Positions 6,828 to 32,426 of a stretch of DNA of 33,295 nt are shown piece by piece. This stretch comes from Thiomargarita sp. (GTDB lineage Bacteria; Pseudomonadota; Gammaproteobacteria; Beggiatoales; Beggiatoaceae), in assembly GCA_020721025.1 (NCBI GenBank), contig DYNO01000008.1, forward strand, positions 1 to 33,295, in the 5' to 3' direction. The notes below the pieces were generated by a model. The model was not told the DNA's origin. It saw only the letters and a program-made list of their open reading frames with translations, and did not search any database. Both the position numbers and the translations under genes were made by a program. How positions within the stretch are numbered: position 1 is the stretch's first letter; each line of letters begins with the position of its first letter.

Positions 6828-6989
6828 TCACAATTTTAAAATGGAATAAGGACAATCTTGAGGAAAAACGTTCAATTTGGTTTCCTCCATTGCTAATTTT
6901 AGCGCATTTGGATAAGCCTGTTGAGTATATTCAGATGATTGATTTTCGCGCTTGTTGGACACAAATGTGATTTCGGTGAAACGCATCAA
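6828..6989 (-). pseudogene. Truncated DUF29-like fragment
   Basis: YPNALKLAMEETKLNVFPQDCPYSI resembles the DUF29 C-terminal pattern. The frame upstream of ~6990 is replaced by the repeated element and the C-terminus is cut short. Confidence 0.55.
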
Positions 6990-6993
6990 AGGG

Positions 6994-7022
6994 TTGACAA
7001 CTATCACTGGTTTTATTATCAT
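6994..7022 (+). promoter_or_regulatory. Sigma70-like promoter at left edge of ncRNA copy 1
   Basis: TTGACA 6994-6999, 17-nt spacer, TATCAT 7017-7022. Confidence 0.65.
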
Positions 7023-7360
7023 CGGTAACAGTTTGTTATTGATTACAATCGATTTAACATTGTATTTCAAGTATTAAGCATGTGGTAATGGACTACGTTT
7101 TATAAAAAACAAATGTGTTTTACGGTGAGAACCAAGCCTATGATGGTATTGTTTACAAACGTAGTCCCGTGATTTAACGACATAAATAGATATAGTTGTT
7201 AAAACTATAAAGCTTGTTCCTACGAAAGTAGGAGTCCACGACACGATCCGGCGGGACTCTAAATGCACGTAAGAAAACTAACCGGGTGGAAGCGGGTCTA
7301 AGACTTAAGCAATCAAGCAGTTGTGTTGACGACGTGAGAATTATTCGCACATCTCCTCGT

Positions 7361-7381
7361 GTTAATGTTTATTAACTTTTT
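7361..7381 (+). terminator. Terminator-like hairpin with T5 at right edge of ncRNA copy 1
   Basis: GTTAAT-GTTT-ATTAAC followed by TTTTT. Confidence 0.5.
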
Positions 7382-7533
7382 AGGAACGGTGGAATTGATT
7401 GCAAGGATAAAAGAGTTATGTAGGGTGGATGAAGCATCTTTTGCCCATCATTTCATCAACGTAAAATTTGGTGGGTAGTGATAAACCTGTTACCCACCTC
7501 ACTAATTATCCAAACTATTTAATATAATTGAAT

Positions 7534-14458: not shown

Positions 14459-17400
14459 TCAAGATGTTGCAGACGGAGAAACTCCATACTTGAAGTCAGC
14501 TTCTTGCAAACATTGGTCAATTTCCGTCGCAAGCTGTAAAATCCAAGGTTCTACAAACATATTATCATGATAGACTGGAACTTCATAGAGTTGTACCGGC
14601 ATCTCGGTCAACTTTTCCAATGTGGACGAATATTTCCACCGCCATTCAGATGACAAAAACAAAGTAATTTCCAACCCCGGCAAGGCAGTTGGCGTATAAC
14701 GTTCTAATGCCTCATAAAAATGACTGATGAACGACATATCTTGCTGCTCCCGCGACACTTGCTTGCCCAGTTTTTTATACAATCTTTTAATCCAACGATT
14801 CAAACGCAACGACCAAGCTAAGTGGATAAAATACAACCTACTTGCCACTTTATGCCCAAGATAGCTCAAACCAAAAGTTTGGATATTGCGCCAATGCCGA
14901 TACAGTCCAAAATACAAATCGTTAGGCTCCCAGATGCTATCAAGAAAGGCAACAAATCCCACCTGCTTGCCGCGCGCCATCAATTCCCTCGCCATTTCAT
15001 AAACTATCGCAGTATCCGCACAGTAAGCACATAAATAATACGGACCTTCCGGTTGTAACCCTTCAATTTCCTTCACATAATACTGTGCGATAGATTCAAT
15101 GCTCAGATTATTTCTAAATTCTGGACGATTTTGCAAGCCAAAAATATTCAAGCCGTAAACTGGATGTGTTTTTTTCATCAGTGGCGCGAGGACTCGTGCA
15201 TAATTGGTTGAACCGACAAAGAAAAACGCCTTACTCTGTCCTTCCGGTCGAATGGGTTCTAACGCACACCATTCACGAGTATATCCCTGTGCCTTGATTA
15301 ATTCTGCCAATTGCACGATGGTTGGATGTCGAAACAATGCCATCAATGGAATATCTTTATGAAAGATTTGTTGCAATTTATACAGCAAGGTCACGCCCAA
15401 CAAGGAATGTCCGCCTAAATCAAAAAAATTGTCATCGACACTGATCGGGCGAGTATTCAGCAATTTCTCAAAGATAATCACCAGTTGTGCCTCAATCTCG
15501 TCTCGCGGGGCGACAAAAGTACGCGTCGAAAGTTGTCGATTTTGCGTTGGCTCCGGCAAGCTACGACGGTCGATCTTGCCACTGAATGTATGCGGTAAGC
15601 TGTCCATTTCGATCACAATGGCGGGAACCATGTATTCTGGCAACTTTTCCTGCAAAAACTCGCGCAAAATCTCGGCAAAGTTTTCACAAGGTGTTTTCAA
15701 AACCACATACGCCACCAAACGTTTATCGCCGGCAATTTCATGAATTACGACTGCAACTTCTTGAATTTGAGGATGTTGTGCCGCAGTAGCTTCGATTTCG
15801 CCCAATTCAATCCGAAAACCACGTAATTTAATCTGATTATCAGTGCGCCCCAAACATTCCAACACACCATCGTCATGATAGCGGGCTAAATCCCCCGTTT
15901 GATACAGTTTTGCAGTGTACATCCCATCATCGGCAGTCTGAAAGGGATTGTTGATAAATTTTTCTGCTGTCAATTCATCACGTTGCAGATAGCCGCGCGC
16001 CACCCCATCCCCCGTGATGTACAACTCACCCACGACACCAATGGGAACGGGTTGCAAATAACGATCTAAAATATAAATTTGAGTATTTTCAATCGGATAG
16101 CCAATCCATTCTGCAATTTTGCCCGGATTCGCATCAGCCGGTGCAGTCACTGGAACTGGGTAACAGGTTGACCAAACTGTAGTTTCCGTCGGACCGTACA
16201 TATTCCATAACCGAGAACCGCGCGCCAACAATTGCTCTGCCAACTCAGTTGTCAAAGGTTCACCGCCACACAACAAGGTCAGGGCTGATTTTCCCTGCCA
16301 ACCCGCCGCCAATAACATTCGCCAAGTGGCAGGTGTGGCTTGCATCACTGTAACCTCTGGTAATATCTTGATTAATTGCACTCCATCTATCGCCACCTCA
16401 CGCGGCACTAAGACGACCTGCGCGCCGATGATAAGTGGAAAAAATAGCTCCAATCCGGCAATATCGAAAGAAATCGTCGTAATTGCTAAAAATTTATCCT
16501 GTGTAGTGAACTGAAACGTGTGTTGCATACTGAGCAAAAAGTTCACAAAACCTCGTTGCAACACTTGCACACCTTTTGGCTTACCCGTCGAGCCAGAGGT
16601 ATAAATCACGTAGGCTAGATTTTCTAACTTCGTTGTATTAGTTAGATTTTCTGAACTTTCCTGAGCAATTTTATGAGCATCGCGGTCTAAGCAAATCACC
16701 GTTTCAATAGATTTGGGTAATTGCGATAACAGTGAATTTTGAGTCACGAGGATGCGTAATTGCGAATCTTCCAGCATAAATGCCAATCGTTGCGCGGGAT
16801 AGACTGAATCTAAAGGAATATAAGCCCCTCCTGCTTTCAAAATTCCCAGCAAACCGATCAGCATCGACAAATGACGCTCGGTGTAAATCCCAACAAATAC
16901 GTCTGGTTGTACGCCATGTTTGCGTAAATAATGTGCTAATTGGTTCGCTTGTTGATTTAAATGACGATAGTTCAGCGTTTGCGTCCCAAAACGAACTGCT
17001 ATGGCATCGGGAGTTTTTTCTGCTTGTTGTTCAAAAAGTTGCTGTACCGATAACGTTGAATAAGGGCGTTGGGTCGCGTTCCATTGTTTGAATAATTGCT
17101 GTTCTTCTGGCGTAACGAGCGGAATCGTCGAGATTTTTTGGTATGGATCGGTCGCGACTTTTTCTAACACTAACTGTAGATGAGCAATCAAGCGTTGCAC
17201 CGTCGATTCTTTAAATAAATCAGTATGATATTCGACAATGCCGTTGAGCCCCGTGCTGGTTTCTTCCAAAAATAGCACCAGATCAAATTTGGCAGCGACC
17301 TGTTTGATATTGAGCGCGGTGGCAGTGATGCCGGGCAGTGCCAACTCTTGCGTCGGGATATTTTGGAACGCGAACATGACTTGAAATAACGGCGAAAAGT

Positions 17401-18502
17401 TTAAATTGCGTTCGGGATGTAATTGTTCTATCAGGATTTCAAACGGTAAATCTTGATAAGTATAGGCATCCAGCGCGACTTGCTTCACTTGGGCGAGTAA
17501 TTGTAAAAAATCGTGTTGCTGTTGTAATTGTACGCGCAGTATCAAGGTATTAACAAAAAATCCAATTAAATCTTCTACTTCAGTACGATTCCGCCCCGCG
17601 ATGGGAGTCCCTAGAGCGATGTCTTGTTGTCCCGTATAACGATGGAGTAATACATAAAAACCCGCCAATAGCGTCATAAACAGGGTCGCCCCGGCGTTTT
17701 GACTGAGTTTTTTAAGATTATCGAGCAATATTTTGGGAAAAGTGAAAAATAGCCGCGCCCCACGAAAAGTTTGTAGTGTCGGACGCGGGTAATCGGTAGG
17801 TAGCGGTAGCGATGGCGGCGAACCTGTAAGCTGTTGTTTCCAATAATTAACTTGTTTGTGAAGCACTTCCCCTTGTAAATATTGTCGTTGCCACCGAGTA
17901 AAATCCGAATATTGAATTGGTAATGCCGGCAAACGTGTCGTGGGGTCGTGATAGAGTTTTGTTAATTCTTTGAAGAAAATACCGAGTGACCACCCATCGG
18001 CAACAATATGATGAATAATTAGAATAAAAATAGTTTCTGATTCAGAGAGTTGTAATAAAGTTGCACGCAATAATGGTGGTTGAGTTAAATCGAAGAGACG
18101 TGACAATTCCACAGTCGTTAATTTTTCTACTTCAATGGCTTGGGTCTCAGTAGGGAGAGCACGTAAATCATGATTTATTAACGATAAAGTGAGTTGCGGA
18201 TGTACCTTTTGCACCGGAGCTTCATTTTGGGTTGTAAAAGTGGTGCGAAGGCTGGCATGTCGTTGAATAATTTGGTTTAAACAAGATTCTAAACGCGTAA
18301 TTGAGAGGTGTCCAACCAAGCGATAGGCACTGATAATATTGTACGCAGGATTATTTGGTTCAAGTTGGTCAAGTAACCATAAACGTTGTTGTGCAAATGA
18401 AATGGGATAACTCTTTGGTTGTGTAGATTTTTCTTGTAACAACTGTGCCAGCAACGCTCGCTTTTGTTCGGCGGTCAGTTGGTCTAATTGTTCTGCGTTC
18501 AT
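14459..18502 (-). CDS. Single-module non-ribosomal peptide synthetase (C-A-PCP-TE)
   Basis: C domain HHIVADG; A domain YTSGSTGKPKG, NMYGPTETT, YQTGDLARY; PCP DNFFDLGGHSL; TE-like C-terminus GPYYLCAYCADTAIVYEMA. Confidence 0.96.
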   Translation of the reverse strand: MNAEQLDQLTAEQKRALLAQLLQEKSTQPKSYPISFAQQRLWLLDQLEPNNPAYNIISAYRLVGHLSITRLESCLNQIIQRHASLRTTFTTQNEAPVQKVHPQLTLSLINHDLRALPTETQAIEVEKLTTVELSRLFDLTQPPLLRATLLQLSESETIFILIIHHIVADGWSLGIFFKELTKLYHDPTTRLPALPIQYSDFTRWQRQYLQGEVLHKQVNYWKQQLTGSPPSLPLPTDYPRPTLQTFRGARLFFTFPKILLDNLKKLSQNAGATLFMTLLAGFYVLLHRYTGQQDIALGTPIAGRNRTEVEDLIGFFVNTLILRVQLQQQHDFLQLLAQVKQVALDAYTYQDLPFEILIEQLHPERNLNFSPLFQVMFAFQNIPTQELALPGITATALNIKQVAAKFDLVLFLEETSTGLNGIVEYHTDLFKESTVQRLIAHLQLVLEKVATDPYQKISTIPLVTPEEQQLFKQWNATQRPYSTLSVQQLFEQQAEKTPDAIAVRFGTQTLNYRHLNQQANQLAHYLRKHGVQPDVFVGIYTERHLSMLIGLLGILKAGGAYIPLDSVYPAQRLAFMLEDSQLRILVTQNSLLSQLPKSIETVICLDRDAHKIAQESSENLTNTTKLENLAYVIYTSGSTGKPKGVQVLQRGFVNFLLSMQHTFQFTTQDKFLAITTISFDIAGLELFFPLIIGAQVVLVPREVAIDGVQLIKILPEVTVMQATPATWRMLLAAGWQGKSALTLLCGGEPLTTELAEQLLARGSRLWNMYGPTETTVWSTCYPVPVTAPADANPGKIAEWIGYPIENTQIYILDRYLQPVPIGVVGELYITGDGVARGYLQRDELTAEKFINNPFQTADDGMYTAKLYQTGDLARYHDDGVLECLGRTDNQIKLRGFRIELGEIEATAAQHPQIQEVAVVIHEIAGDKRLVAYVVLKTPCENFAEILREFLQEKLPEYMVPAIVIEMDSLPHTFSGKIDRRSLPEPTQNRQLSTRTFVAPRDEIEAQLVIIFEKLLNTRPISVDDNFFDLGGHSLLGVTLLYKLQQIFHKDIPLMALFRHPTIVQLAELIKAQGYTREWCALEPIRPEGQSKAFFFVGSTNYARVLAPLMKKTHPVYGLNIFGLQNRPEFRNNLSIESIAQYYVKEIEGLQPEGPYYLCAYCADTAIVYEMARELMARGKQVGFVAFLDSIWEPNDLYFGLYRHWRNIQTFGLSYLGHKVASRLYFIHLAWSLRLNRWIKRLYKKLGKQVSREQQDMSFISHFYEALERYTPTALPGLEITLFLSSEWRWKYSSTLEKLTEMPVQLYEVPVYHDNMFVEPWILQLATEIDQCLQEADFKYGVSPSATS

Positions 18503-23991: not shown

Positions 23992-24207
23992 GATGAAATT
24001 GGTAATTTAAGCCAAAAGGTTGAGTTTCATGCCAAAACAAATATGTGGATTAGCGACGGTATCGGGTATTGTGGAAGCATTCTAGGTCGTGTGTCAAGTC
24101 CATTTTTTAGGGGCGTTAGATGCCGTCAGAAATTCGAGTGTTTACAACATGCGATGAAATAGTGGTCGGGAATGAGTTTATCAATGGTCACGATTAAATT
24201 TGCAGGG

Positions 24208-24236
24208 TTGACAACTATCACTGATTTTGTTATCAT
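24208..24236 (+). promoter_or_regulatory. Sigma70-like promoter at left edge of ncRNA copy 2
   Basis: TTGACA 24208-24213, 17-nt spacer, TATCAT 24231-24236. Confidence 0.65.
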
Positions 24237-24564
24237 TCATAACAGTTTGTTACCGATTGTAATCGATTTAATGTTGTATTTCAAGTATTAAGCACGTAGT
24301 AATGGACTACATCTTATAAAAAAACCAATGTGTTTTACGGCGAGAACCAAGCCTATGATGACATTGTTTACAAACGTAGTCCCATGATTTAACAACATAA
24401 ACAGATATAGTTGTTAAGACTATCAAGCTTGTTCCTACGAAAGTAGGAGTCCACGACACGATCCGGCGGGACTATAAACTGCACGTAAAGGTGACGTAAG
24501 GCTTGAGCAATCAAGCAGTTGCGTTGACGACGTGAACAAAGTGAGAATCATTCGCACATCTTAT

Positions 24565-24585
24565 GTTAATATTTATTAGCTTTTT
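24565..24585 (+). terminator. Terminator-like hairpin with T5 at right edge of ncRNA copy 2
   Basis: GTTAAT-ATTT-ATTAGC (one U-G wobble) followed by TTTTT. Confidence 0.5.
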
Positions 24586-24829
24586 AGGATCGGCATGTTG
24601 CAAAACTGAGCGTGTTATTATAAACTACTCGGATTGCAAAATTAGCTTTTTTCGCATCCGTCTGACTTGAATCTCAAAAAGATAAATCATTCTGCTCCGG
24701 TCGAAAGAGATATGTTGATAATTCAACAGGTTGCAAATTCTGCTTTCTTGTCAAGAAGTTTTGCTATTAATTGAATGATAAAGAAAATTTCGATTAAAAG
24801 CGGATTTTTTACGGAAAGATTAAAAAAGT

Positions 24830-31785: not shown

Positions 31786-32199
31786 TTAGATCATTAGTGG
31801 TTTTAGCCAATTTTCAACTCGGACATGGGGATAGCGTCTAAAATCACTTTCGTTATTGGTAACTACAATCAGATTCATCGCAACGGCTTGTGCTGCAATC
31901 AATTTATCTAAAGCATCTGCCTTTTTATCGCGAGTGGCATAACGAATACTGGCATAAACATGAGCCGCCGCCGACTCAAACGGTAATATCGGAATAAGTT
32001 CTAATAAGGCATTGAGTGCTTGTTGATTTTGAAAACGAGTTTCTTCCGCACAACAAACAATACCATACTCCAACTCTGCCAGTGTAATTGCTGACATCAC
32101 GATATCACCTTGATGACATGCTGCAAATCGTTCTGCCACTTCGGGCGGTTGACGTTTCATTAGGTAAATACATATATTTGTATCTAATAGATATTTCAT
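31786..32199 (-). CDS. vapC: PIN-domain toxin, VapC family
   Basis: MKYLLDTNICIYLMKRQPPEV; SAITLAELEYGI; ADALDKLIAAQAVAMNLIVVTNNESDFRR. Confidence 0.94.
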   Translation of the reverse strand: MKYLLDTNICIYLMKRQPPEVAERFAACHQGDIVMSAITLAELEYGIVCCAEETRFQNQQALNALLELIPILPFESAAAHVYASIRYATRDKKADALDKLIAAQAVAMNLIVVTNNESDFRRYPHVRVENWLKPLMI

Positions 32200-32426
32200 A
32201 GACCATCACGCTGTTGTTCACCTTGCTCATCTCTGCCATCCACCATAAAATCAGGACTGAAGGCGGCAAAACACGACATGAGATGGGTGAGCTTTTGAGT
32301 CAGCACTGGGCGAATCAGGAGTGAGCTACCAACTTGTAAAATTTCATAATTCTTTTCAGCGAGTTGCAGTTCTTTGGGAATATGCACTATCTGCATTCCA
32401 TCTTGAGTTGATATTCTGGCTAACAT
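32196..32426 (-). CDS. vapB: VapB-like antitoxin
   Basis: MLARISTQDGMQIVHIPKELQLAEKNYEILQVGSSLLIRP; overlaps vapC by ATGA. Confidence 0.85.
   Translation of the reverse strand: MLARISTQDGMQIVHIPKELQLAEKNYEILQVGSSLLIRPVLTQKLTHLMSCFAAFSPDFMVDGRDEQGEQQRDGL

Follow-up and report, generated by a model that had tools for sequence, protein, structure and literature searches.

Protein-less IS607-type elements with a probable TnpB guide-RNA scaffold in a Thiomargarita genome

A block of about 400 bp occurs twice in the 33,295-nucleotide stretch of Thiomargarita sp. DNA analysed here (the window; GenBank assembly GCA_020721025.1, contig DYNO01000008.1), starting at a promoter-like site and ending at a terminator-like hairpin, which raises the question of whether it is an RNA gene in its own right or part of a transposon. 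The initial annotation proposed an autonomous transcription unit of about 350 nt, as either a multicopy noncoding RNA (ncRNA) gene or an ncRNA-bearing mobile element. The mobile element with a structured, covarying RNA is borne out, but the autonomous unit is not, since its ends are transposon ends. Both copies are protein-less, MITE-like, non-autonomous IS607 elements and not a free-standing ncRNA gene, and the block is very probably an IS607-family derivative carrying the guide RNA (reRNA, or omegaRNA) of TnpB. The parts of the two copies described below lie on the forward strand. Elsewhere in the window, a 1347-aa open reading frame (14459-18502) resembles a single-module nonribosomal peptide synthetase with a thioesterase-like end, and two small open reading frame pairs (373-890 and 31786-32426) resemble ParDE- and VapBC-type toxin-antitoxin modules.

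The two copies, 6990-7389 and 24204-24593 as first annotated, align over 400 columns with sharp ends and 83% identity (E 6e-122), slightly lower than the 85-90% estimated by eye. As was also noticed then, the DNA flanking the two copies is unrelated, and no long open reading frame is common to both. Unrelated flanks are seen at every other copy of the block as well. The element limits were set from the ends common to the copies, giving two complete elements, copy 1 at 6992-7389 (398 bp, GG to GG) and copy 2 at 24206-24593 (388 bp), neither of which contains a TnpA open reading frame that would make it an autonomous IS607 transposon. A count of two is too low: a search of the host assembly (3.24 Mb, 293 contigs, 92% complete) yields 40 matches, comprising three full-length copies (the two in the window and one on contig C204), two near-full copies (C264 and C254) and 35 partial ones. 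Beyond the two in the window, the genome thus has three copies that are full or nearly so. Most of the longer partial matches stop at the common right end, and many span the right half only. The block is found in none of 57 related genomes. Searches with the interior pattern in GTDB genomes, with the right-end core in viral contigs and with the interior in plasmids gave no match, in collections that may omit the source genome or its near relatives.

The joined flanks of copy 1 give no through-match in 43 family genomes, and the flanks themselves are repeat-like, the left one being similar to repeats of relatives and the right one containing a common palindromic repeat. As no empty site was recovered, the insertion of copy 1 is read from the common ends only. 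For copy 2, the predicted empty site is ..GGG followed by CATGTTGCAAAACTGAGCG. The palindromic repeat GGTGGGTAGTGATAAACCTGTTACCCACC lies just right of copy 1 (7465-7498), with similar stretches occurring many times in the relatives G007 and G028, and the left flank (6828-6993) encodes the short remains of a C-terminus (..YPNALKLAMEETKLNVFPQDCPYSIL..), which are also seen in relatives and which we take to be DUF29-like in appearance.

The ends identify the family. The termini, GG followed by TTGACAACTATCACT on the left and TTTTTAGGATC followed by GG on the right, also bound elements that encode TnpB or a serine transposase of the IS607 family. The 17-bp left end GGTTGACAACTATCACT (6992-7008), with GG as the crossover dinucleotide, has 31 matches across the genome and is identical in the IS607 tnpA-bearing elements L053 and L057, with one base different in L050, and in the tnpB-only elements L036, L038, L039, L041, and L043. 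The TTGACA-N17-TATCAT site annotated as a promoter is indeed present in both copies, at 6994-7022 (score 11/12) and, read directly, at 24208-24236; it lies ahead of tnpA or tnpB in the gene-bearing relatives and is the transposon left end. The TnpA proteins of elements sharing this end are of the IS607 serine transposase type (helix-turn-helix plus resolvase domain), belong to the NCBIfam family transpos_IS607 (NF033518, E 1e-54) and match the TnpA structures of ISC1904, ISC1926, and IS1535.

IS607 transposons are described to have GG at both termini, to insert at (G)GG targets and to make no target duplication (PMC6188088). The elements studied here likewise show GG at both termini and as the target, with no target duplication seen. 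GG is present in 26 of 26 left-end contexts, an invariance that is no independent test because the search pattern included GG with one mismatch allowed. Directly ahead of the left GG stands a G in 16 of these 26 contexts and an A in 8, in line with the (G)GG preference of the family. Some copies of the ~376-aa tnpB type (L059-L063) have another conserved left end, TGCTCCGTCCTGTTACCATAACAGTTGACAACAGATAAC, without the GG start, and TGCTCCGTCCTG also adjoins the right end of L022 and, inverted, L005.

At the right end, CGG terminates 26 of the 27 ends found and is followed by random flanks, a boundary as reported for IS607 elements (PMC6188088 and PMC10711439). The MITE right ends finish with ..TTTTTAGGATCGG, and those of the TnpA elements L080 and L081 with ..AAAAAATGATCGG (GATCGG). 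These two elements, on contigs C171 and C161, represent the reverse reduction, with tnpA kept, tnpB largely deleted and the same end type. In copy 1 the crossover GG lies at 7388-7389, and a guide would begin directly after it, at about 7390-7409. The AU hairpin and T-run proposed as a terminator are present beside this end in copy 1 (7361-7382), but the stem of copy 2 is weaker (GTTAAT..ATTAGC), and a terminator scan found none because the stem is AT-only. The supposed terminator is the right end of the transposon. Since one pseudoknot arm of the RNA scaffold is made of the six bases that precede the final G, a functional RNA must read through into the flank.

This scaffold occupies the 3' part of the block, at 7233-7389 in copy 1 (covariance model E 1.2e-9) and at 24448-24593 in copy 2 (E 3.1e-14). 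In copy 1 it comprises SL1 (7233-7258, with the loop CGATCC at 7244-7249), P1 (7266-7270/7332-7336), P2 (7279-7282/7320-7323), P3 (7304-7307/7314-7317), and a pseudoknot in which the SL1 loop pairs with the six nucleotides ending at the first G of the terminal GG (3' arm at 7383-7388). A pseudoknot and right-flank bases are likewise part of the scaffold in the ISXfa1 IS607 reRNA (PMC10711439). We scored the 23 pairs of the four helices and the pseudoknot over 22 distinct sequences. The paired cells amount to 95.8%, against a mean of 72.0% after shuffling, the double-changed cells to 121 against 39.4, and the covariation to 0.657 against 0.193; none of 500 shuffles reaches the observed pairing, double changes or covariation, and with a displacement of a single column, pairing falls to about 30%. 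The covariation is strong in all five helices, and the pseudoknot changes in concert (CGCTCA/TGAGCG, CGTTAC/GTAACG, CGCTTG/CAAGCG, and CGATCC/GGATCG). The spacing between SL1 and P1 is nearly constant in the sequences of this genome and of relatives. The helices were placed by hand on segments hand-aligned with natural spacing; both controls, shuffling and sliding, back this placement strongly. Unsupervised RNAalifold on a MAFFT alignment misses most helices because the P3 and P2 regions differ in length. The whole element folds no better than its shuffles (z -1.4), and the scaffold makes up only ~157 of the 398 bp of copy 1.

All 23 scored pairs are intact in copy 2, including the pseudoknot CGATCC/GGATCG, and it could, as judged from this fold, serve as a guide. 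Copy 1 has two mismatches, A.C in P3 and A.A in the pseudoknot (whose arm reads GGAACG); it also lacks 9 nt after P1 through a deletion, and is probably decayed. Scanning Rfam at the gathering score returned only the tRNA, and nothing credible up to E 10; the block was not recognised as a named RNA family in the initial annotation either, but the kind of RNA is a known one, the TnpB reRNA.

Genomic matches that start at query position 244 of the block (window 7233) directly follow an open reading frame ending in ..CDCGLSIDRDLNAALNLN.., which is the TnpB C-terminus; in L010, the match begins about 10 nt past the stop of an intact tnpB, and the arrangement in relatives is alike. The scaffold there lies between the tnpB 3' end and the transposon right end, the location expected of a reRNA, and it directly follows intact tnpB both in the host genome and in other sulfur bacteria. 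The L010 gene has 376 codons from stop to stop and encodes the Pfam domains HTH_OrfB, OrfB_IS605, and Cas12f1-like_TNB; the protein belongs to the NCBIfam family guided_TnpB, has ISDra2 TnpB as its closest natural PDB match (E 4e-48), and has readable RuvC D-E-D residues. Homologous TnpBs, 59-71% identical, are encoded in Thiotrichaceae, Chromatiaceae, and Methylococcales, in many cases behind an IS607-type TnpA serine recombinase, and the right ends of these relatives read ..TTTTTAGTAGCGG or ..TTTATGAGCGG (..AGCGG / ..AACGG).

The covariance model finds 63 reRNA copies in the host genome, including both window copies, and 0-2 copies per genome in 42 family relatives. Most of the copies lie at contig ends, in broken tnpB repeats. 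Upstream sequence of 1.2 kb or more is available for 24 of them; a full-length tnpB precedes 3 of these and a tnpB fragment 6, while 15 have no tnpB. Contig breaks strip intact tnpB from this sample, so that 21/24 is not a genome-wide fraction, and the safe statement is that at least 21 reRNA loci lack an intact tnpB.

The middle of the block is a noncoding relic with a recognisable scrap of tnpB. In copy 1, blastn, tblastn, and an alignment with the L012 and L011b MITEs locate the codons for VFYGENQA at 7106-7139; the counterpart in the 548-aa TnpB of L078 is VSYGENQA, which stands just ahead of the RuvC Asp. Two further MITE types carry this scrap as well, L012 and L011b, the latter having both ends of the 548-aa TnpB type. 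The window copies combine a left half of the 548-aa type with a right half of the 376-aa type and therefore look chimaeric in sequence. About 50 nt around the scrap are conserved in three MITE types with differing right halves (L001-L003, L012, and the second element of L011), which may reflect common ancestry or function. A small hairpin, CCTACGAAAGTAGG, lies directly before the reRNA (7210-7232 and 24425-24447); of the five copies, the two in the window, L002, and L004 have it and L005 does not. It is also absent from tnpB-linked copies and looks like a separate insertion. The interior stem GGACTACGTTT/AAACGTAGTCC was rejected as a conserved feature, as it is disrupted in copy 2 and in those on C264 and C254.

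These features suggest how the element may live. An IS607 serine transposase supplied by other elements would recognise the left (GG plus TTGACAACTATCACT) and right (TTTTTAGGATC plus GG) ends and move the element in trans by crossover at the GG dinucleotides, without target duplication, as deduced from the ends common to these elements and the known IS607 mechanism. The element has lost every protein gene and has retained the left-end promoter and the complete 3' reRNA of a ~376-aa TnpB. A transcript begun at the left end and running past the right end would have flanking host DNA as its 3' tail, and an intact TnpB encoded elsewhere may use such an RNA as a guide for cutting the empty donor site, favouring retention of the element. 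The intact TnpB and the IS607 TnpA are encoded in this genome; we infer the read-through and the use of the flank as a TnpB guide in trans, and regard such guide use as plausible but tentative, with somewhat less than an even chance. It is possible, though doubtful, that the genome hosts a guide-only IS607 population, in which trans-acting guide genes would persist without either protein and direct a common TnpB to their own empty sites; that the 63 reRNA loci far exceed the intact nuclease genes is read in this sense with equal hesitation.

Passive carry-over and the supply of guides in trans are equally possible. The same element may carry its guide RNA as mere baggage, with no guide made or used, a reading to which we give about an even chance. 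The right end required for transposition overlaps the reRNA, and because the scaffold abuts this end, internal deletions that preserve it tend to keep the scaffold by default. The mismatches and the deletion of copy 1 point the same way, as does the divergence between copies, which shows no clear extra constraint (0.89-0.99 in the reRNA against 0.79-0.96 in the interior); purifying selection on the scaffold is not demonstrable among so few MITE copies. However, L022, a minimal element of 128 bp, has no more than the last ~97 bp of the right end. This suggests that an end can do without the whole scaffold, though it is no proof that the scaffold is used. Several tnpB-less copies also score as high as tnpB-linked ones, with 73 bits for L012 and L014, 65 for L238, and 60 for copy 2.

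It is improbable that a Y1 transposase moves the block as a palindrome-associated element (PATE) of the IS200/IS605 type. Such elements are known (PMC3119063), IS605 elements also contain tnpB and a reRNA, and the block has a hairpin close to its right end, but the 92% complete assembly has no match to the Y1 transposase (PF01797), the close TnpB relatives stand behind serine recombinases, the GG at both ends and the (G)GG targets fit IS607, and the left end is identical to that of IS607 TnpA elements. A host ncRNA gene in several copies, each with a promoter and an intrinsic terminator of its own, would account for the good -35/-10 match, the hairpin with T-run, and the real RNA structure in the 3' part, but is scarcely credible given that tnpA- and tnpB-bearing transposons are bounded by the same ends, the right end is a scaffold pseudoknot strand with a negative terminator scan, and the block has unrelated flanks at each copy and is missing from all 57 related genomes.

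Read as an IS607 derivative, the block is a known kind of element in an unusual variation, an IS607 reduced to its ends and a guide RNA. It resembles the tnpA- and tnpB-carrying IS607 transposons (IS607, IS1535, ISC1926, and ISXfa1) in its GG termini and (G)GG targets, in showing no inverted repeats or target duplication and in the right-end-encoded reRNA of a TnpB, but at 388-398 bp it lacks tnpA and tnpB, with TnpA available from related elements in the same genome. Its scaffold resembles the ISXfa1 reRNA (PMC10711439) in its ~150 nt at the right end, its stem-loops, its flank-derived guide (predicted here) and the pseudoknot of an apical loop with guide-flanking nucleotides, but stands without its tnpB and matches no Rfam family. 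With bacterial MITEs it shares short non-autonomous repeats bearing the ends of a larger IS, but it has no terminal inverted repeats and a structured guide RNA aboard. Discussion of IscB and IS605 TnpB has extended to omegaRNAs that act in trans and to PATE-encoded guides. The tnpB transposons of the IS605 kind have known gene-less derivatives, the PATEs (PMC3119063), core-deleted and protein-less like the block and mobilised in trans, as we infer here, whereas the block has IS607-type ends, GG chemistry, and a complete guide scaffold with a promoter. In Thiomargarita, IS605-derived MITE-like features were predicted (PMC4853749). We found no description of protein-less IS607 elements with a complete reRNA, in a search that stopped short of the main full texts on TnpB retention and trans-acting omegaRNAs.

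A formerly unexplained repeat thus becomes a natural test of TnpB acting in trans, and the covariance model and structure provide an experimentally usable description of a gammaproteobacterial IS607 reRNA clade absent from Rfam. If protein-less IS607 guides work, selfish guide RNAs can spread without a nuclease of their own, and the TnpB retention model would reach whole families of parasites of the parasite.
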